From the NCBI GenBank assembly GCA_937870985.1, contig CALMXF010000157.1, positions 1 through 32,187 on the forward strand: DNA of 32,187 nucleotides. Reading direction: 5' to 3'. The notes beneath the pieces are model-generated. The model searched no databases, had not been told where the DNA came from, and saw only the letters and a program-made list of their open reading frames with translations. Shown here one piece after another: positions 1,700 through 14,527 of the stretch (its first letter is position 1; every line of letters starts with the position of its first letter). This DNA comes from an uncultured Chloroflexota bacterium (GTDB lineage: Bacteria > Chloroflexota > Chloroflexia > Thermomicrobiales > CFX8). The position numbers were made by a program, and so were the translations under genes.

Positions 1700-4370
1700 G
1701 CTCAGTCAGGCTCCTGCGCAGCAAGTCCTGACGTTCCGCTGCCGCCGCTCGACGCTCGCGCTGAGCTCCGACGACCTTCTCCGGCGCCTTGGCTACGAAC
1801 TGCTCATTGGCGAGCATCGCATCAACTCGGGCGATTTCTGCCTCGACTTCTGCGATCTCCCGCTCGATTCTCGCCCTTTCCGCGGCGAGGTCAACCATCC
1901 CAGCCAGTGGTAGGTAGATCGTCGACCCGCCGACGACGATCACAGTGCTCGTCGCAGGAGACTCCGGCTCGCCGTCGCGAACCTCCCAGGTATCGCGATC
2001 GATCCGGGCGAGAGACTGCAGCTCGCCCGCCAGCTCTTCGAACGTCGCCCGCGCCTGGCCAGGATAGATGACCGCGCTGATCCGACGACCCGGATCGACC
2101 CCATGTTCGCTGCGAGCATTCCGGATCTCCCGGGTGGCTTCACGAAGCAGCTCGAAGCTGGCGACGGCCTCTGGAAACGACTCCCCCGCCTCCGGGAATG
2201 CGGCTACGATCAGCGCATCCCCGGAATGCGGAAGTTGCTGCCAAAGCTCTTCGGTCACAAACGGCATGAACGGGTGCAGCAGCCGAAGCGTCCTCTCGAG
2301 CACATAGGCGAGCGTCTGGGGCACAACAGGATCCATCGGTTCGGCGTAGAGCCGCACTTTCACTGCCTCGATATACCAGTCGCAGAACTCCGACCAGATA
2401 AATTCATACAGCGCCCGGCCGGCCTCGTGCAGTTGATACCCGTCCATCAACCGGGTGACATCTTCGATCGTGGAGGCGAGCCGGCTGAGAATCCACCGAT
2501 CCGGGATCGAGAGTGCTTCGTCAACAGGGCGAGCAGGAGCGCCGTCGTCGTCCCGCACGATCTGTGCGCTTTCGATCGCTCGCAACGAAAAGCGAGTCGC
2601 GTTGAACAGCTTGTTGGCGAAATTACGCATGGCTTCGACGCGTTCGGTGGACAGTTTCAGGTCGCTGCCTGGACCCGATGCTGTGAGAAGCGCGAACCGT
2701 AGCGCGTCGGTCCCATACTCCGCGCTGATTGTCGTCGGATCGAGCACGTTGCCTTTGGTCTTGCTCATGCGCTGGCCGTGCTGATCGCGGACGGTTCCGT
2801 GAAGATAGACATCCTTGAACGGAGGCGCGCCCATGAGCTCGATGCCGAAGAAGATCATCCTCGCCACCCAGTGGAAGATGATGTCGTAGCCAGTCTCCAT
2901 CAAATGACCGGGGTAGTACATGCGCAGGTCCGGCGTCTCTTCCGGCCAGCCAAGCGTCGAGAAGGTCCAGAGGCCGGACGAAAACCAGGTATCGAGCACG
3001 TCAGGATCCTGCTCGATATTGCGCGACCCGCATGCGTCGCAGCTCCCGAGGCGCTCCTGGTCGGTTGCCGTCATTTCTCCACAGTCGCGGCAGTACCAGA
3101 TCGGAATCCGGTGGCCCCACCAGAGTTGCCGCGAGATGCACCAATCGTGGATGTTCTCCATCCAGCTCAGATACACGGTGGAAAATCGCGATGGATAGAA
3201 CCGGATCTGGCCGTCCTTCACGACTTCTATCGCCGGCTTCGCCAGTGGCGCCATCTGGACGAACCACTGCTTCGAGATGAGCGGCTCGACAACTGACCCA
3301 CAACGGTCACAATGCCCCACCGAATGCTCGTGCGGCTCGACGCGGGCTAGCGCTCCATCCTGTTCCAGTCGCGCAACGACCTGCTCGCGTGCTTCGGCGA
3401 CTGACAACCCTGCAAACGGCCCGGCCTCGTCATTCATCGTGCCGTCGAGATTCATGACATTCACCATCGGCAGGTTGTGTCGCCGGCCAATCTCGAAATC
3501 ATTCGGATCGTGAGCCGGAGTCACTTTGACTGCGCCGCTGCCAAATGCACGGTCGACAGCCTCATCGGCGACGACGGGAATCCGACGGTTGAGGATCGGA
3601 AGGATGACCTCATGGCCGATCAGCGCGCGATACCGTTCGTCGTCTGGGTGAACCGCGACCGCGGTGTCCCCCAGCATCGTCTCGGGCCGGGTCGTCGCAA
3701 CCTCGATAACGCCACTCCCATCGGCCAGTGGGTAGCGCAGATGCCAGAGAAACGACGAGACATCTTCATGAACCACCTCGAGGTCGGAAAGCGCCGTCAT
3801 GCAACGTGGACACCAGGAGATCAGACGCTCCCCGCGATAAATCAGGCCCTTGTCATACAGATGCTTGAATGCCACGCGAACTGCGTGGGCGGGGCCAGGA
3901 TCCATCGTGAAGACATATCGCGACCAGTCGCACGACGCGCCGAGCGACTGGAGTTGACCCTTGATTCGCTCCTGGTACGACTCCATCCAGTCCCAGACGC
4001 GGCTGAGGAACTGCTCGCGCCCGAGATCATGGCGTGTCAATCCCTCCTTCGCGAGCTCCTTCTCGACGACCCACTGCCCCGCAATACCAGCATGGTCTGC
4101 GCCTGGCAGCCAGAGCGCGGCGAAGCCGAGCATCCGGTGATACCGGATCATCAGATCCTCGACCGCCGAGAACAGCGCGTGCCCCATATGCAGCTCACCA
4201 GTGACGTTGGGTGGCGGCATGATAACGACGTATGGACCGCGGCCACGATCGACTGGCTTGAAGTAACCGCGAGAGTGCCAGAACTCGTACCAGCCGCGTT
4301 CTGTGGCGCCTGGATCGTAGGCCTTACCCAGCTCATCCGCGCCGGACGCGACCCCGGGCTGCGTCGTCAT
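1692..4370 (-). CDS. valS: Valyl-tRNA synthetase
   Basis: ValRS charges tRNA-Val and edits misactivated threonine. The 892-residue class I enzyme shows PPPNVTGELHMGHA with the HIGH-type HMGH at residues 61-64, a CP1 editing domain containing the TTRPETMLGDTAVAVHP motif, Cys pairs (CDRCGS, YCRDCGE, CDACGS), RMSKTKGNVLDP (KMSKS-type) near residues 532-543, the anticodon-binding domain, and a C-terminal coiled-coil arm rich in Glu, Arg and Ala. The start ATG at 4370 is chosen because AAAGGAG lies 8 bases upstream and the N-terminus then matches the family; an in-frame upstream ATG at 4424 lacks this. It is the first gene of valS-mpg-mutL and is preceded by a T-box leader. Confidence 0.97.
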   Translation of the reverse strand: MTTQPGVASGADELGKAYDPGATERGWYEFWHSRGYFKPVDRGRGPYVVIMPPPNVTGELHMGHALFSAVEDLMIRYHRMLGFAALWLPGADHAGIAGQWVVEKELAKEGLTRHDLGREQFLSRVWDWMESYQERIKGQLQSLGASCDWSRYVFTMDPGPAHAVRVAFKHLYDKGLIYRGERLISWCPRCMTALSDLEVVHEDVSSFLWHLRYPLADGSGVIEVATTRPETMLGDTAVAVHPDDERYRALIGHEVILPILNRRIPVVADEAVDRAFGSGAVKVTPAHDPNDFEIGRRHNLPMVNVMNLDGTMNDEAGPFAGLSVAEAREQVVARLEQDGALARVEPHEHSVGHCDRCGSVVEPLISKQWFVQMAPLAKPAIEVVKDGQIRFYPSRFSTVYLSWMENIHDWCISRQLWWGHRIPIWYCRDCGEMTATDQERLGSCDACGSRNIEQDPDVLDTWFSSGLWTFSTLGWPEETPDLRMYYPGHLMETGYDIIFHWVARMIFFGIELMGAPPFKDVYLHGTVRDQHGQRMSKTKGNVLDPTTISAEYGTDALRFALLTASGPGSDLKLSTERVEAMRNFANKLFNATRFSLRAIESAQIVRDDDGAPARPVDEALSIPDRWILSRLASTIEDVTRLMDGYQLHEAGRALYEFIWSEFCDWYIEAVKVRLYAEPMDPVVPQTLAYVLERTLRLLHPFMPFVTEELWQQLPHSGDALIVAAFPEAGESFPEAVASFELLREATREIRNARSEHGVDPGRRISAVIYPGQARATFEELAGELQSLARIDRDTWEVRDGEPESPATSTVIVVGGSTIYLPLAGMVDLAAERARIEREIAEVEAEIARVDAMLANEQFVAKAPEKVVGAQRERRAAAAERQDLLRRSLTELG

Positions 4371-4430
4371 ACTCGTTCTCCTTTGATCTGCCAGAAGCCG
4401 GCCGGCAGTGGCGCTCATGCTCAATCAGAA

Positions 4431-4458
4431 ACAGAAAACCCGTCCTGCCAAGGACGGG
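4431..4458 (-). terminator. Intrinsic terminator (attenuator) of the valS T-box
   Basis: On the minus strand CCCGTCCT-TGGC-AGGACGGG (4458-4439) forms an 8-bp stem with a short loop, followed by TTTTCTGT. It lies just downstream of the T-box core, as expected for the regulated terminator, and about 60 bases before the valS start. Confidence 0.88.
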
Positions 4459-4677
4459 CTCACCCGCGGTTCCACCTTGCTTCGACGGCTGGGCCGTCGC
4501 GCTCGTGCGCGATAACGGGCGAACCCGCGAGAGCCTGGCGTGTCGATCGACACCTCAGCGCTCGACCGAACGGGCGACTTCAGCCGCGCCTGCGTGGCGA
4601 GGCTTGCAGCCTCGGGCCTCGCCTCTCTGGCCGCCGCGGAGGACCTACTCCTCCCGTCCTTTGGCGGTTCTCAGTTG
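4431..4677 (-). promoter_or_regulatory. Valine-specific T-box leader of valS
   Basis: On the minus strand the leader has the T-box core AAGGTGGAACCGCGGG at 4478-4463, which pairs with the 3' end of uncharged tRNA. A stem I region near 4650-4630 contains GGAGGAGTAGGT with the AG-bulge-type AGTA, followed by CCAGAGAGG. A specifier-loop-like segment CTGAAGTCGCCCG places GUC, a valine codon, at 4578-4576. Directly after the core comes an intrinsic terminator. The layout (stem I, specifier, T-box, terminator, synthetase gene) matches known T-box regulators: uncharged tRNA-Val should stabilise the antiterminator and let valS-mpg-mutL be transcribed. The core is certain; the specifier is a reading by eye. 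The 5' end is set from a candidate promoter. Confidence 0.9.
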
Positions 4678-4683
4678 CTTCAT

Positions 4684-4692
4684 AGGATACCA
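4684..4692 (-). promoter_or_regulatory. Candidate valS promoter (extended -10)
   Basis: The minus strand reads TGGTATCCT, an extended -10 element, placed so that transcription would begin near 4677 at the 5' edge of the T-box leader. No good -35 hexamer is visible 17 bases upstream. Confidence 0.4.
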
Positions 4693-4762
4693 GCGCGGAC
4701 AGGGAATCCGCAGCCATTTCGTGTATCGTGACTGCATGTCAACGAACGTTTCGTCCGGTTCG

Positions 4763-4791
4763 TTCCGAACGTGTTCGGGGGCTGCTACAAT
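4763..4791 (+). promoter_or_regulatory. uvrA promoter with palindrome in the spacer
   Basis: A weak -35 (TTCCGA, 4763-4768), a 17-base spacer and TGC-TACAAT (4783-4791) form a plausible promoter. The spacer is overlapped by CCGAAC-GT-GTTCGG (4765-4778), a 6-bp-arm inverted repeat. Such placement would let a bound protein block RNA polymerase. It resembles the Gram-positive LexA box (CGAAC-N4-GTTCG) but has only two central bases, so LexA control is a guess. Confidence 0.5.
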
Positions 4792-4874
4792 TCGGGAATA
4801 CGAATGAATGTTCTACGCACGATCGATAGTGCCAGTCAACAGCCGACCACCCGCGCAGCGACACCGGAGTCCAG

Positions 4875-7754
<2,880 letters not shown>

Positions 7755-10100: not shown

Positions 10101-10184
10101 GGAGAGGTGGCCGAGTGGTTTAAGGCGGCTGTCTTGAAAACAGTTGGGTGATGAGCCCCGGGGGTTCGAATCCCTCCCTCTCCG
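10101..10184 (+). tRNA. tRNA-Ser(UGA)
   Basis: A class II tRNA with a long variable arm folds by eye. The acceptor GGAGAGG (10101-10107) pairs with CCTCTCC (10177-10183), with discriminator G at 10184. The anticodon loop CTTGAAA has TGA at 10135-10137, and the T arm is GGGTTCGAATCCC. The 3' CCA is not encoded. It follows serS closely. Confidence 0.96.
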
Positions 10185-10192
10185 CCGATACA

Positions 10193-10244: not shown

Positions 10245-10487
10245 CTACTGCTTCGTCATCCTGACCTGCCAGACTTCAGGACCCTCTTCGAGGTACTCCC
10301 AGCCGATCGCGCCAGGACGCTCGGCCATCAACTGATAGTAGAGCGGCTTGGGATCGTGGTCATTGATCAGCCGCAGCGTTTCTCCCGCGGCAAGGCCATC
10401 GATCTTCGAGAAGATCAGCGGATGACGCTCACGTGGCACCATGCCACGGACATCGATCGTAACGGTCTCACTCGCCTGTGCCGACAT
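10245..10487 (-). CDS. Small DUF2249 domain protein
   Basis: The 80-residue protein is a single DUF2249 domain, with TIDVRGMVPRERHPLIF, then LRLINDHDPKPLYYQ and a C-terminal WEYLEEGPEVWQVRM. The His and the DHDPKPL motif are the family's conserved core. DUF2249 has no settled biochemical role; it is often found near nitric oxide, denitrification and hemerythrin-like genes. It is the last gene of the leftward cluster, overlaps the end of the membrane protein gene by 20 bases and has AGGAGAAAGGG upstream of its ATG. Unlike the two DUF2249 copies in the fusion protein, this one keeps the full conserved motif, so it is the likely active or ligand-binding copy. Confidence 0.85.
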   Translation of the reverse strand: MSAQASETVTIDVRGMVPRERHPLIFSKIDGLAAGETLRLINDHDPKPLYYQLMAERPGAIGWEYLEEGPEVWQVRMTKQ

Positions 10488-11850
10488 GCACAGCCCTTTC
10501 TCCTACAGCGTCCCGCCGAGCCCGGCGAAATCGCCCCAATACGCGCGTCGATATTCCGGATTGCCAGTGGCTGGCGATCCGCACAACGTTCCCCAGGAAA
10601 CAGCCAAGTCCGACGGTGGCAAGCACGCCACCGATAGTGGCCATCGCTGGTTCCTGCCAGAGCAGACTGGCAAGCGTCGCCAGCAGCGCCGAGAGCCAGG
10701 CGACCCACCCGATACGGGCGAGCCTGAGGCTATAGAGCTCCTCCAGCCGTGGCACTCTCATTCGGCCGGCGACCGGCGCATACCGATTGAGCCAGACGAG
10801 GAACGTTGCGATCTTATAGAAGAAGCCCTGGATGGCGCTGATCGCCAACCCGGCCAGGGCAAGCCATACGGAGGCGACCCAGAGTCCGGACGTCGGTCCA
10901 GCCTCCCGGACCATCCCGATCGTGAGCGCTGTCGCCGCCACGATACCCATCGACGCGGCGGTCAGCGCGAACGGGATATGGACATCGATCACCTTGCGCC
11001 GGCGGGATTGGTACAGATGGGCGAGTTGAACGGCGAAGAGAATCTGGCCGGCAAGAATAATCGCAGCTGCAACCACCAGAATTGCGCGTTCTCGGTAGAG
11101 CAGCAACGCGCCTGCCAGAAGCCACCCGCCAGCCACGGTGCAGCCAAGCTCGGCCCATGCAACCCGGTGCCAAAGCCGATCCTCGGTCAGCGTGAACATC
11201 CCGACTAACCGATATGCGACGCCAAACAGAAGAGGTGCGATCCAGCAGACGATCATGAGCGTTGCGTGGGCCGCTAGCAGCGATAGCCCCGAACCTTCGA
11301 GAAAGCCGGTCGTTTTGTTGAGCGCCAGCAAGAGGCCGGCCAGCACGCCAAGCGGCAACCCAGTCAGCGCCGCGACGACATGCCAGCGGACGACTCCACG
11401 TTCCGGCGCTTCCGCAAGCGTGCCCCAGACGATCGCTGCGTACATGACAAGCGCAGTAAACGTGAGTGCCCCGCCAACTGTGAGACCGGGCTGCCATGTT
11501 GTAACGAGTGATGGCAGGAACAGCAGAATCCCTGTGAGATAGACCCAGAACGAAAATCGCGCCAGCCGCGGGACGGCCAACGGCTGCTGGAGCACAACCG
11601 GGACGAGCTGGTAGCTGGCGCCGACGATCAGCGGAGCGATGATTCCCAATGTGTTGAGGTGAACGAATGCGAGTAGCTTCGGTGTATAGAACGATTTCAG
11701 CAGTAATGGGTAGGCCCACGGACCGATCGCCGCGGACACCAGCATCCCGATCATGGCCAGCACCATGAAGCGCGCCGGGATGTCGAGATCGGGAGCGTTC
11801 GCCGAACTGATCCCACCGCCCATCCGTGGTGGCGCGGCCGGTGGCTTCAC
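10468..11850 (-). CDS. Polytopic membrane protein, oxidase-subunit-I / NnrS-like
   Basis: The 460-residue protein has about 12 hydrophobic segments. Two diagnostic stretches, LLAFVHLNTLGIIAPLIVG followed by QLVPVV (residues 59-86) and AAHATLMIVCWIAPLLFG with AYRLVGMF (193-219), resemble the His-bearing helices of heme-copper oxidase subunit I relatives and of NnrS proteins. Membrane-region histidines are H64, H157, H195, H278 and H291. The paired HH and the HxH motif of true oxidases are absent, so a canonical CuB/heme a3 site is unlikely; heme binding through H64 and H195 is possible. The start is a GTG that overlaps the stop of the upstream gene (GTGA). The cluster context suggests a role with nitric oxide, oxygen or redox sensing or handling. 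Function is inferred. Confidence 0.7.
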   Translation of the reverse strand: MKPPAAPPRMGGGISSANAPDLDIPARFMVLAMIGMLVSAAIGPWAYPLLLKSFYTPKLLAFVHLNTLGIIAPLIVGASYQLVPVVLQQPLAVPRLARFSFWVYLTGILLFLPSLVTTWQPGLTVGGALTFTALVMYAAIVWGTLAEAPERGVVRWHVVAALTGLPLGVLAGLLLALNKTTGFLEGSGLSLLAAHATLMIVCWIAPLLFGVAYRLVGMFTLTEDRLWHRVAWAELGCTVAGGWLLAGALLLYRERAILVVAAAIILAGQILFAVQLAHLYQSRRRKVIDVHIPFALTAASMGIVAATALTIGMVREAGPTSGLWVASVWLALAGLAISAIQGFFYKIATFLVWLNRYAPVAGRMRVPRLEELYSLRLARIGWVAWLSALLATLASLLWQEPAMATIGGVLATVGLGCFLGNVVRIASHWQSGISTRVLGRFRRARRDAVGERAVHVGTGE

Positions 11851-12734
11851 TCCGCTGCCTCGCCAAATGGCGGCTTCTGGATGAGCACCTCGATACGATC
11901 TTGCGCCAGCTCGTGCGTGTCGTGGCGATATCCCATTGCGTCGAGTTGCGGGTACAGGTGCATCGGCCGGCGAACATGCTGAACCAGCAGCGACGAACCG
12001 TCTGGCAGTGATTCAAGCGCCTCGAGGATCTTAATCATCGGTTCGGGTGGCACCAGCTCGCTCACGTCGATCGTAACGACTGCGTCTGGACGCGACCAAT
12101 CCGTGTCAGCCGGTTGAGGTTGCGCGGGAGCGGCCTTCTCCTTCGGCACGGGAGCGCGTGATTCACCCGAGTTGAAGAACCAGATGCGCCAGTCATCTGC
12201 CGCATCCATCGACGTCCAGTGCTCGAAGCCGCGCATAGCCAGCACGTCGTACAAGGGGACCGGCTCAAACGTGTTTCGTAGCAGGAACATAGAACCCTCT
12301 GGCGTGTCGCGCGCGGCGCCCATAATCGCGCCGAACGGCTCCTCGCCGCGATCCTGAAACGAACGAACGTCCAGCTCGAGCGCCATATCGGCGGCGTCAA
12401 GCCAGGCCGGTCGTTCCTCAGGGACACGTTCAACCGGCTGGCTACCCGAGACCGTGGCCGGCGCGACAGCGTCGCTATCGACTGCGGCATTGAGCCGTTG
12501 GACGAGCGCATCTGGCTCGAGTCCAGCGATCTGGGCGGCCTGCGCGACCGTGACCAGGCGTGATTGAACCCGACGTAGGGCCGGGTTTCGCAGCTTGCTG
12601 AAGGCAGGAGCTGTGTCGATCAGCACCTCGAGAAGTTGCGGATAGACGCGAAGCACCTCGCTGATCTTCCAGTCCGCGTCGATTGTCTCGTCCCCGGCCT
12701 GGCCGCGTGACCGGCGTCGCTGAATGAGCGCCAT
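11847..12734 (-). CDS. DUF1858-DUF2249-DUF2249 fusion protein
   Basis: This protein of 295 residues has three domains. Residues about 20-82 form a DUF1858-like domain (KISEVLRVYPQLLEVLI, then PAFSKLRNPALRR) that lacks the usual cysteines. Two degenerate DUF2249 domains follow, LELDVRSFQDRGEEPF (about 118-190) and VTIDVSELVPPEPM (about 219-290), separated by a Pro/Ala/Lys-rich linker. Both have lost the DHDPKPL motif (NTFEPVPLY and HVRRPMHLY instead). The ATG at 12734 overlaps the stop of the upstream DUF59 gene in a TGATG joint, so I prefer it over an in-frame upstream start at 12788. The biochemical role is unknown; the cysteine-poor build suggests a scaffold or regulatory partner of the small DUF1858 and DUF2249 proteins. 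Confidence 0.75.
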   Translation of the reverse strand: MALIQRRRSRGQAGDETIDADWKISEVLRVYPQLLEVLIDTAPAFSKLRNPALRRVQSRLVTVAQAAQIAGLEPDALVQRLNAAVDSDAVAPATVSGSQPVERVPEERPAWLDAADMALELDVRSFQDRGEEPFGAIMGAARDTPEGSMFLLRNTFEPVPLYDVLAMRGFEHWTSMDAADDWRIWFFNSGESRAPVPKEKAAPAQPQPADTDWSRPDAVVTIDVSELVPPEPMIKILEALESLPDGSSLLVQHVRRPMHLYPQLDAMGYRHDTHELAQDRIEVLIQKPPFGEAAE

Positions 12735-13048
12735 CACCACCACCCCAATTCGCGCTTGCCGTCTTCCGTGATCATGTCTGGCGACCACGGGGGCGACCAG
12801 ACCAGATTTACATCCACTGTCGCTACACCCGGAATGTGGGTACGGACGGCCCAGTCGACCGCCTCGGTCAGAACGTCGTGAAGTGGGCAGCCGGGAGTCG
12901 TCAGCGTCATCGTGACAATAACGCCGTTGTCGACGATCTCGACGCCGTAAACCAGACCGAGATCGATGACATTGATCCCGAGCTCGGGGTCATACACTTC
13001 CTTGAGAATCGTGAGGATCATGTCCTCGTCCATCAGCGCGGACAGCAC
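12734..13048 (-). CDS. MIP18/DUF59 Fe-S cluster assembly factor
   Basis: The 104-residue protein is a MIP18 (DUF59) domain: ILKEVYDPELGINVIDLGLVY at the N-terminus, then TMTLTTPGCPLHDVL with the conserved Cys54, and a C-terminal VNLVWSPPWSPDMIT. Relatives (SufT, PaaD, CIA2) help deliver Fe-S clusters to target proteins. The GTG at 13048 is chosen because AGGAGG lies five bases before it; an upstream in-frame TTG at 13075 overlaps the previous gene and has no such site. It lies between a CxxC DUF1858 gene and the DUF1858-DUF2249 fusion, so its client is probably a metalloprotein of this cluster or one under its control. Confidence 0.9.
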   Translation of the reverse strand: MLSALMDEDMILTILKEVYDPELGINVIDLGLVYGVEIVDNGVIVTMTLTTPGCPLHDVLTEAVDWAVRTHIPGVATVDVNLVWSPPWSPDMITEDGKRELGWW

Positions 13049-13071
13049 GCTCTCCTCCTGACCCAATCCCG

Positions 13072-13305
13072 TCAAAGCGCGGTCGGTGACGGATCATCCG
13101 TCCGAATCGCCTCGATGAGCTCCTCGAGCAGTCTCTCCACGGGCTCGCCGTAAATCCGGCAAGCGTCGCCGATACTCTCGAATCGCGCCAGATCACACCC
13201 GAAGCACAACATCCTGTGGCGAAGGAACACCGGCACCGTTTGTGGATACCTGGTCACTAGATCATCGAGGTTGGTGTCAGTAGAGATGATCTCTTCAACC
13301 ATCAT
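13072..13305 (-). CDS. DUF1858 redox-disulfide protein
   Basis: The 77-residue protein has a single DUF1858 domain of the kind named 'hybrid cluster protein-associated redox disulfide domain': LDDLVTRYPQTVPVFLRH, then the CFGC pair (C34, C37), then Cys49 in GDACRIYG. The CxxC suggests thiol-disulfide or metal chemistry; ScdA/RIC-type Fe-S repair proteins carry a related N-terminal domain. The start is the first of two adjacent ATGs at 13305, preceded by AAGGA at proper spacing. The 94 bases between this start and the crp-type gene hold a perfect palindrome and a candidate promoter. It is likely the first gene of a regulated sub-operon. Confidence 0.85.
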   Translation of the reverse strand: MMVEEIISTDTNLDDLVTRYPQTVPVFLRHRMLCFGCDLARFESIGDACRIYGEPVERLLEELIEAIRTDDPSPTAL

Positions 13306-13347
13306 GGCTTGTCCTTGCCATCGACGCCGTCCGGCACGCTTCACCAA

Positions 13348-13356
13348 CATATGCCA
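13348..13356 (-). promoter_or_regulatory. Candidate promoter before the DUF1858 gene
   Basis: The minus strand reads TGGCATATG, an extended -10-like element, with predicted start near 13341. No normal -35 is visible; instead the FNR-type palindrome is centred about 41.5 bases upstream of that start, the class II activator position. Confidence 0.4.
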
Positions 13357-13369
13357 GACGTAGAAGAGC

Positions 13370-13395
13370 GCGTCTTTGCGCCAGCGCAAAGACGC
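13370..13395. promoter_or_regulatory. Perfect palindrome with FNR-box layout
   Basis: GCGTCTTTGCGC (13370-13381) and GCGCAAAGACGC (13384-13395) are exact reverse complements separated by CA. The core reads TTGCG-CCAG-CGCAA, with the same 5-4-5 geometry as the FNR/DNR box TTGAT-N4-ATCAA. It lies 4 bases after the stop of the Crp/Fnr-type gene and ahead of the DUF1858 gene. As RNA it could also form an 11-bp hairpin, but no T-run follows, so an operator seems more likely than a terminator. Confidence 0.6.
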
Positions 13396-13399
13396 CGGG

Positions 13400-14140
13400 T
13401 CAATTGGTGGTGTCGGCGATATCTTCAGCGATTGCGACAAGATCATGAGGGCGGAGGATGATGACACGCTCACGCGCGGCGATCAGAATGCCTTGTCGAT
13501 CCCACGCGCTCAGCACGCGACTTGCGGTACTGAGCGTTGTTCCACAGAGGTCAGCAATCGCCTGACGCGAGAGAGTGACGTCGATCTCGATGCCGACGGC
13601 CGTGCGCGTCCCCGTGCGGTTTGCCAGCCGGAGCAACATCCGGGCAATGCGCCGCTCGACGCGCTCGGTCTGCAATTCCTGGATGCGTGATTCAGCGTCA
13701 CGAAGTCGAGACCCGAGCTCTCTGATTACCGAGATCGCAAAATCGGGGAATTCTCGAATCAGCGATTGGAATTCAATCGCCGGCAACACGAGAACGACCG
13801 AGGTTTCCGCAGCCATCGTCGTCGCCGGGTAGTTGTCGACACCCCAACCACCTGCGCCACCGAACATCTCGCCCGGCCGGATCAAACGGAGGATGACCTC
13901 ACGTCCATCATCGGTTTCGCGAATGACACGCACCTCGCCCTCGGCAAGCACGTGAACCGCGTCGGCGGGTTGTCCTTCAACGAAGATGATCGAACCACGT
14001 TCGATCGACCGAACGCGACTACGTCCCGCAATCGACAGGAGTGTCTCTTCCGAGAGTTCGTCAAAAGGACGGACGCCTCCCAGCAACGCTGCGCGGCGTT
14101 CAACCCCCCAGCCCGTCTGTCGCGCGGGCGATCCACTCAA
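13400..14140 (-). CDS. Crp/Fnr family transcriptional regulator
   Basis: The protein (246 residues) has an N-terminal cyclic-nucleotide-binding-type beta roll (GSIIFVEGQPADAVHVLAEGEVRVI, then LRLIRPGEMFGG), a long dimerisation helix (ISVIRELGSRLRDAESRIQEL) and a C-terminal winged helix with LSRQAIADLCGTTLSTASRVL as the helix-turn-helix. It lacks the Arg-Ala of a cAMP pocket and has no N-terminal Cys cluster, so it is neither a true CRP nor an Fe-S FNR; a heme- or NO-responsive DNR-like role is possible. The recognition helix ends in SR as in FNR/DNR. A TTG at 14140 with GGAGGAACGGCAG before it is preferred; a GTG at 14167 is the alternative. It heads the leftward redox cluster and probably controls it. 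Confidence 0.88.
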   Translation of the reverse strand: MSGSPARQTGWGVERRAALLGGVRPFDELSEETLLSIAGRSRVRSIERGSIIFVEGQPADAVHVLAEGEVRVIRETDDGREVILRLIRPGEMFGGAGGWGVDNYPATTMAAETSVVLVLPAIEFQSLIREFPDFAISVIRELGSRLRDAESRIQELQTERVERRIARMLLRLANRTGTRTAVGIEIDVTLSRQAIADLCGTTLSTASRVLSAWDRQGILIAARERVIILRPHDLVAIAEDIADTTN

Positions 14141-14196
14141 CTGCCGTTCCTCCAGCCTGCCAGCCACCGCTGCTTCGAGCGGCCCTATGATCTTCG

Positions 14197-14343: not shown

Positions 14344-14433
14344 GGGAAGGTGCCAGAGTGGTCGAATGGGGCCGCCTGCTAAGCGGTTGTGGGCCTTATA
14401 AGTCCACCGAGGGTTCGAATCCCTCCCTTCCCG
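14344..14433 (+). tRNA. tRNA-Ser(GCU)
   Basis: A second class II serine tRNA. The acceptor GGGAAGG (14344-14350) pairs with CCTTCCC (14426-14432), with discriminator G at 14433. The anticodon stem is GCCGC/GCGGT with loop CTGCTAA, giving GCT at 14378-14380. It has a long variable arm and the T arm GGGTTCGAATCCC. CCA is not encoded. Confidence 0.96.
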
Positions 14434-14527
14434 CATGATGAAACGGTCGGGCGGAATGCCCGGCCGTTCTTGTTGTTTCGAAGAGAAGAGCGATGCCGTT
14501 TGCAACCGGCGCGCGATGGGAGAACTC

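Follow-up and report, generated by a model that had tools for sequence, protein, structure and literature searches.

The DNA analysed here (the window) is a 32,187-nucleotide stretch, contig C157 (CALMXF010000157.1), of the 2.83-Mb, 89% complete genome of an uncultured Chloroflexota bacterium whose relatives include Sphaerobacter and other metagenome-assembled genomes (MAGs) of Thermomicrobiales. It carries a leftward cluster of six genes for which an original prediction, made from the sequence alone, had proposed a system that senses nitric oxide (NO) or low oxygen and protects or matures a heme or Fe-S protein. All six genes lie on the strand given there and carry the domains named, as confirmed by Pfam. 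The two DUF2249 proteins are referred to here as DrpA and DrpB, after their Thermus counterparts, and the membrane protein as P5. The features of the cluster are the following.

13400..14167, minus strand: gene of a Crp/Fnr regulator with the NnrR-like recognition helix GTTLSTASRVLSAW (Pfam cNMP_binding 9.7e-20, HTH_Crp_2 9.3e-15)
13375..13390, minus strand: NnrR-type operator TTTGCGCTGGCGCAAA, a predicted activator site; a perfect palindrome except for the 4-base centre
13348..13353, minus strand: putative -10 element CATATG, at the 22-nt spacing common to 10 non-redundant sites
13072..13305, minus strand: DUF1858 protein of 77 aa with a CFGC motif of the redox-disulfide type (PF08984, TIGR03980)
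~12734..13048, minus strand: Fe-S assembly protein of the MIP18/SufT-PaaD type with the conserved TTPGCP cysteine (PF01883, FeS_assembly_P, 6.3e-21)
11847..12734, minus strand: DrpB-like protein of 295 aa, DUF1858-DUF2249-DUF2249, without cysteine (Pfam)
10468..11850, minus strand: P5, membrane protein of the heme-copper-oxidase superfamily with the CcoN fold and 12 transmembrane (TM) helices (AlphaFold, Foldseek and alignment)
10245..10487, minus strand: DrpA-like single-DUF2249 protein of 80 aa (PF10006 1.9e-32)

The genes had been described as mostly overlapping. This holds for three junctions (MIP18/DrpB by 1 base, TGATG; DrpB/P5 by 4 bases, GTGA; P5/DrpA by 20 bases), but there is no overlap between the Crp/Fnr and DUF1858 genes when 13305 is taken as the start of the latter. 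This ATG, with the stop at 13072, is the best start of the DUF1858 gene, whose product scores 69.9 bits with TIGR03980 against a cut-off of 44.95; a short gap separates it from the MIP18 gene. The ~94 bp between the Crp/Fnr stop (13400) and this start hold the perfect 16-bp palindrome, and the tight operon therefore consists of five genes, with the regulator just upstream. The whole cluster lies downstream of serS and is flanked by two tRNA-Ser genes (10101-10186 and 14344-14434). A second species of the genus (locus L034) has an identical gene order and both tRNA-Ser genes. In G102, a close relative of the same genus whose genome is 96% complete, two tRNA-Ser genes next to serS flank the cluster in this way.

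In other genera much of this gene order is retained, well above what chance would give. In a class-wide search of 158 genomes, neighbourhoods were retrieved and genes were predicted with a codon-based caller. The order MIP18-DrpB-P5-DrpA is common to the window and eight other loci (L034, L035, L036, L037, L038, L039, L041, and L066), and shorter or rearranged cores occur elsewhere, such as MIP18-DrpB-P5 in L042, L043, L044, and L070, several contigs being short. MIP18 is an almost constant partner. The Crp and DUF1858 genes accompany it in the window, L034, L035, L037, and L038; at L046, genes for Crp, DUF1858, P5, and DrpA are present and DrpB is interrupted by the contig end; and a nearby Crp gene is absent at the core loci L036, L039, L042, L044, and L072. 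In the Sphaerobacter-type MAGs (L037, L038, and L040), the genes of CtaD (cytochrome c oxidase subunit I) and a DUF488 protein separate Crp-DUF1858 from the MIP18-drp core. DrpA of L048 and L050 is fused to ScdA_N, the N-terminal domain of the RIC family, which repairs iron centres.

The original prediction had made its case depend in part on co-occurrence in other genomes, and the core genes do recur together elsewhere, also in distantly related bacteria and archaea: in Thermus nar islands, in rhizobial nir-nor clusters, and in one Chloroflexi qNor cluster. Campylobacterial and actinomycete genomes and one nirK cluster of a haloarchaeon have partial cores. DrpB of the window is 41% identical to DrpB of Thermus thermophilus over 93% of the length, and the Thermus nar island encodes DrpA, DrpB, a P5 homologue (hhalign 99.8%, 4e-30), and MIP18. 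On the Thermus plasmids (L055/L054), the nar island has two additional members between drpB and the P5 homologue, namely a COX1-like fragment of 144 aa and a protoglobin that carries a ThiS-like tail. In Sinorhizobium/Ensifer, DrpA-P5-DrpB-MIP18 is flanked by nor/hemN and nnrS-nirK-nnrR, the rhizobial DrpB being devoid of DUF1858. On a Haloprofundus plasmid, nirK is accompanied by a P5 homologue and by three genes of DUF2249 proteins, and the order on the Chloroflexi contig L066 is qNor-Crp-MIP18-DrpB-P5-DrpA. A nirK or NirK-like gene adjoins the set in L041, L048, and L050; a Campylobacterota-type MAG (L072) has DUF2249-P5-MIP18 with a NorB/COX1-like gene ~5 kb off; and a molybdopterin oxidoreductase and an MFS transporter adjoin DrpB and P5 in L049/L052. 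Within the class, P5 co-occurs with NirK-like proteins scoring at least 150 bits (22/25 versus 33/133 genomes, Fisher 3e-9); collapsing by genus, which removes shared ancestry only partly, leaves 14/15 versus 17/63 (p=3e-6).

The palindrome upstream of the DUF1858 gene, TTTGCGCTGGCGCAAA, is identical to the consensus ctTTGcgnnnncgCAAag given for the NO regulator NnrR by Rodionov et al. (PMC1274295), and the flanking C and G agree as well. The exact form TTGCG-N4-CGCAA occurs once in the 2.83-Mb genome, at this very position, against ~3 occurrences expected from base composition. In 295 kb of relatives' loci it is found 12 times, 11 of them upstream of DUF1858, MIP18, DrpB, or qNor and the remaining one, in L067, where drpB ends; in L041, a box with one mismatch lies between the divergent nirK and MIP18 genes. 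All loci with an adjacent NnrR-like Crp gene have the box (the window, L034, L035, L037, L038, L046, L066, and L067), and it was not found at the loci whose Crp helices are of the RE type (L048 and L050). L066 contains a compact regulon (1775-5635), with an exact NnrR-type box before qNor and another before MIP18 and the NnrR-like Crp gene between them. At the 10 non-redundant sites a -10-like hexamer follows exactly 22 nt downstream of the box, with 34/60 matches to TATAAT, a score reached by 0/5000 shuffles (the next best offset is 23). This spacing places the centre of the box at -41.5, the position of a class II activator. Since the -10 spacing is conserved across loci and a T-run is absent after the palindrome, its reading as a terminator is disfavoured.

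The recognition helix GTTLSTASRVLSAW of the regulator resembles in alignment the rhizobial NnrR helix GTTLHTVSRILSAW, and its 34-36% identity to rhizobial NnrR is the highest among the compared regulators outside this group of loci. Its single cysteine, Cys208, is located in the DNA-binding domain, and the cysteines of an FNR-type [Fe-S] cluster are absent; an FNR-type oxygen sensor is rejected on this ground, and low-oxygen sensing by such a cluster is not supported. The regulators vary between core loci (NnrR-like, RE-type helices, DnrT). The proposed tie to NO and denitrification is borne out by the conserved neighbourhoods together with the NnrR-type operator and helix, and both the nitrogen-oxide linkage of the cluster and its NnrR-type control are well supported.

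P5 had been described as similar to oxidase subunit I or NnrS. The first likeness is confirmed by the fold: the AlphaFold model (pLDDT 89.6, pTM 0.87) has 12 long helices, its top Foldseek match is subunit I of the cbb3 oxidase, CcoN (8smr_E, E=1.2e-8, TM 0.68), and NorB (3o0r, E=3.2e-6) stands further down the list, although the score with Pfam COX1 (27.9 bits) remains under the cut-off of 34.8. The second likeness fails, and P5 was rejected as an NnrS protein, having no Pfam NnrS match and an hhalign probability of 0.4%. H64 of P5 aligns with the helix-2 histidine of NorB, an established heme ligand in that protein. Across 19 diverse sequences, H64 (TM2) and H195 (TM6) are the only invariant histidines, the other invariant residues being Q81, P84, Y213, M218, R283, and W353. 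Catalytic heme-copper oxidases and NO reductases (NORs) have six conserved histidines, in TM2, TM6, TM7 (two), and TM10 (two); neither the TM7 His-His pair nor any TM10 histidine is found in P5, which excludes a normal oxidase or NOR centre. The suggestion that the membrane protein may itself be the effector thus appears unlikely in its catalytic sense, as judged from the missing ligands of the binuclear centre.

Among the soluble partners, DUF2249 adopts the TusA/SirA fold (TusA by Pfam, 2.2e-5; 3lvj_C, TMt 0.79; given the low pTM of 0.39 of the DrpB model, structure matches are for single domains only). DrpA and DrpB contain no cysteine at all, including the catalytic one of TusA (CPxP), and DUF2249 is for this reason not a TusA-type sulfur carrier; H22 and H44 are invariant in the DrpA alignment. 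The MIP18 protein has both the PF01883 domain and the TxxGCP cysteine. The DUF1858 protein with its CxxC matches the hybrid-cluster-associated model TIGR03980. A hybrid-cluster connection had been mentioned in the original prediction, but hcp is missing both in the source genome and in all those of the class that have a clear P5, and this association was rejected for the group.

The observation that no reductase accompanies the cluster is true of the window but not of the genome, which has narG, nirK, and an eNOR-type candidate elsewhere. A full narG with its neighbours narH, narJ, and narI is located on C208, a contig other than that of the cluster, and a nirK above its cut-off on C349. Within the class, the cNor and qNor queries had no real match. 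The genome encodes three further COX1 proteins. In the paralogue on C33 (L080), HGAQQ stands in place of the oxidase HPEVY, so that the active-site tyrosine is replaced by the glutamine that defines eNOR (PMC8756737); in that on C234 (L081), the same tyrosine is replaced by asparagine. Judging by these residues, both are candidate NO reductases. Given narG, nirK, and the COX1 paralogues, the organism is probably a nitrate-to-NO or nitrate-to-N2O respirer. On C349 (L074, 1952-2086), nirK is divergent from the gene of a second Crp/Fnr protein with a CRP-like RE..R helix, and the gap contains a palindrome, GTCACAGTACTGTAAC, that differs from the operator; with its own Crp gene and palindrome, nirK seems to be under its own switch.

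Taken together, we see about even chances that the cluster is a NO-inducible accessory module of nitrogen-oxide respiration, which assembles, protects, or repairs metal cofactors under NO. The Crp/Fnr protein would be an NnrR-type, NO-responsive activator of the operon, and induction would occur when NO comes from the cell's own nitrate or nitrite reduction or from outside. P5 would be catalytically silent, probably binding one heme through H64, the likely equivalent of the helix-2 heme b ligand, and might dock the soluble Drp proteins; P5, DrpA/B, the CxxC DUF1858 protein, and MIP18 could then act together on the cofactors of nitrogen-oxide-respiring enzymes. The near-constant MIP18, the DrpA-ScdA_N fusion in L048/L050, and the NarG phenotype of Thermus drpAB mutants are counted in favour of the cofactor role; still, protection or maturation of Fe-S or heme proteins is a reasonable but unproven inference. 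A more specific version is advanced only tentatively: a NO-handling complex of four proteins, in bacteria and archaea. In it, the silent oxidase-fold P5 would keep its two histidines for sensing or docking NO by means of heme, and would act via the cysteine-less DrpA/DrpB and MIP18 in the protection or maturation of respiratory metalloenzymes; DrpA/DrpB by themselves would be only a part of this complex.

Several points weigh against the accessory-module reading. The operator was not found at nirK of this organism, a gene accompanied by a divergent Crp gene of its own. With a strict NirK cut-off, the association with P5 becomes weak (7/25 versus 13/133, p=0.02). G102 keeps the whole operon without a true narG or nirK match; the module therefore cannot serve only those enzymes, and this genome argues for coping with NO generally over serving one enzyme. 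The model of DrpA/DrpB published for Thermus is one of sensing and not of maturation (PMC6282519). Finally, the heme, the NO response, and the physical complex are predictions for every member of the set, derived from sequences and models.

The sensing role leads to a serious, though less likely, alternative, built by analogy with Thermus, in which DrpA, DrpB, and P5 would together sense nitrogen oxides at the membrane and hold back or release the Crp/Fnr regulator, with P5 as the missing anchor of DrpB. In Thermus, nar expression is constitutive in drpB mutants and no longer depends on nitrate in drpAB mutants, and DrpB associates with the membrane although it has no TM segment (PMC6282519); P5, whose gene lies just downstream there, could account for this association. 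A Crp/Fnr gene also accompanies the core at many loci. However, the core is found without a nearby Crp gene in L036, L039, L042, L044, and L072, the regulators differ between loci, a sensor would not need MIP18 as a near-constant partner, and the NarG made by Thermus drpAB double mutants has little activity (PMC6282519). This last phenotype fits cofactor support as well as sensing.

It is unlikely that these are ordinary, vertically inherited redox and Fe-S genes with no nitrogen-oxide tie and merely incidental neighbours elsewhere: the operon of G102, a genome with neither narG nor nirK, would suit such an explanation, but the core lies beside nar, nir, or nor in distant lineages and has an NnrR-type operator at -41.5. 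Still less probable is a NO-consuming P5, either a minimal NO reductase or a NO dioxygenase, since the CcoN/NorB-like fold (NorB 3o0r, E=3.2e-6) and the alignment of H64 with the NorB helix-2 histidine are offset by the fact that the usual sites of a high-spin heme and of CuB/FeB are missing, H64 and H195 being the only invariant histidines, and by the candidate NOR paralogues encoded elsewhere in the genome. Sulfur trafficking, in which the TusA-fold DUF2249 proteins would supply MIP18 with sulfur for the synthesis of Fe-S clusters or cofactors, is suggested by the Pfam match to TusA (2.2e-5), the fold, and the adjoining MIP18, but we regard it as extremely improbable because DrpA and DrpB have no cysteine and hence no persulfide site of TusA.

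If the accessory-module reading is true, an overlooked complex is present in many denitrifiers and NO-exposed bacteria and may affect the release of NO or N2O. P5 is a concrete candidate for the missing partner in the membrane binding of DrpB, and the promoter is testable.

DrpA and DrpB of Thermus were proposed to be nitrate sensors acting with DnrS/DnrT, and double mutants make the poorly active NarG (PMC6282519). The domain architectures are the same as in the window, respiratory genes and a Crp-type regulator adjoin, and the Thermus island has homologues of P5 and MIP18, which the consulted passages of the Thermus papers do not mention. In contrast, the window has no nearby nar gene (narG being on C208), its regulator is NnrR-like and not DnrS/DnrT, and DUF1858, MIP18, and P5 share one operon with drpBA. 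With the alpha-proteobacterial NnrR regulon (PMC1274295, PMC6710368), the cluster shares an identical operator consensus and a similar helix, and rhizobial NnrR-bearing clusters hold the same four-gene core; in Bradyrhizobium, hemN and a gene of a DUF1858 protein depend on NnrR. The difference is that the source genome has the exact box once, only here, and another regulator beside nirK. DUF2249 corresponds to COG4309. COG4309 genes were described by Rodionov et al. as probably co-transcribed with nor under NnrR/NsrR control (PMC1274295), but these authors dealt with the single gene, and the consulted passages do not describe the company of P5, DrpB, and MIP18.

P5 shares with CcoN and NorB the 12-TM fold (TM-score about 0.68) and the helix-2 histidine, but differs in having no TM7 His-His, no TM10 histidine, no CcoO/CcoP or NorC partner, and a score below the COX1 cut-off. 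Like NnrS, which adjoins it in rhizobia, it is a NO-linked polytopic membrane protein, although profile similarity between the two is undetectable by hhalign. Divergent members of the heme-copper oxidase superfamily were reportedly classified by Pei et al. 2014, a study that may cover the P5 family together with the DUF2249 genes beside it. No account of the four-gene module, of P5 as a partner, or of the Chloroflexota operator was found in the searchable literature, outside which Pei et al. 2014 lies. Each on its own, DrpA/DrpB, COG4309, and divergent proteins of the oxidase superfamily were already known, and the cluster links the Thermus DrpA/DrpB phenotype, the proteobacterial COG4309 genes beside nor, and the oxidase-like membrane proteins without an active site.

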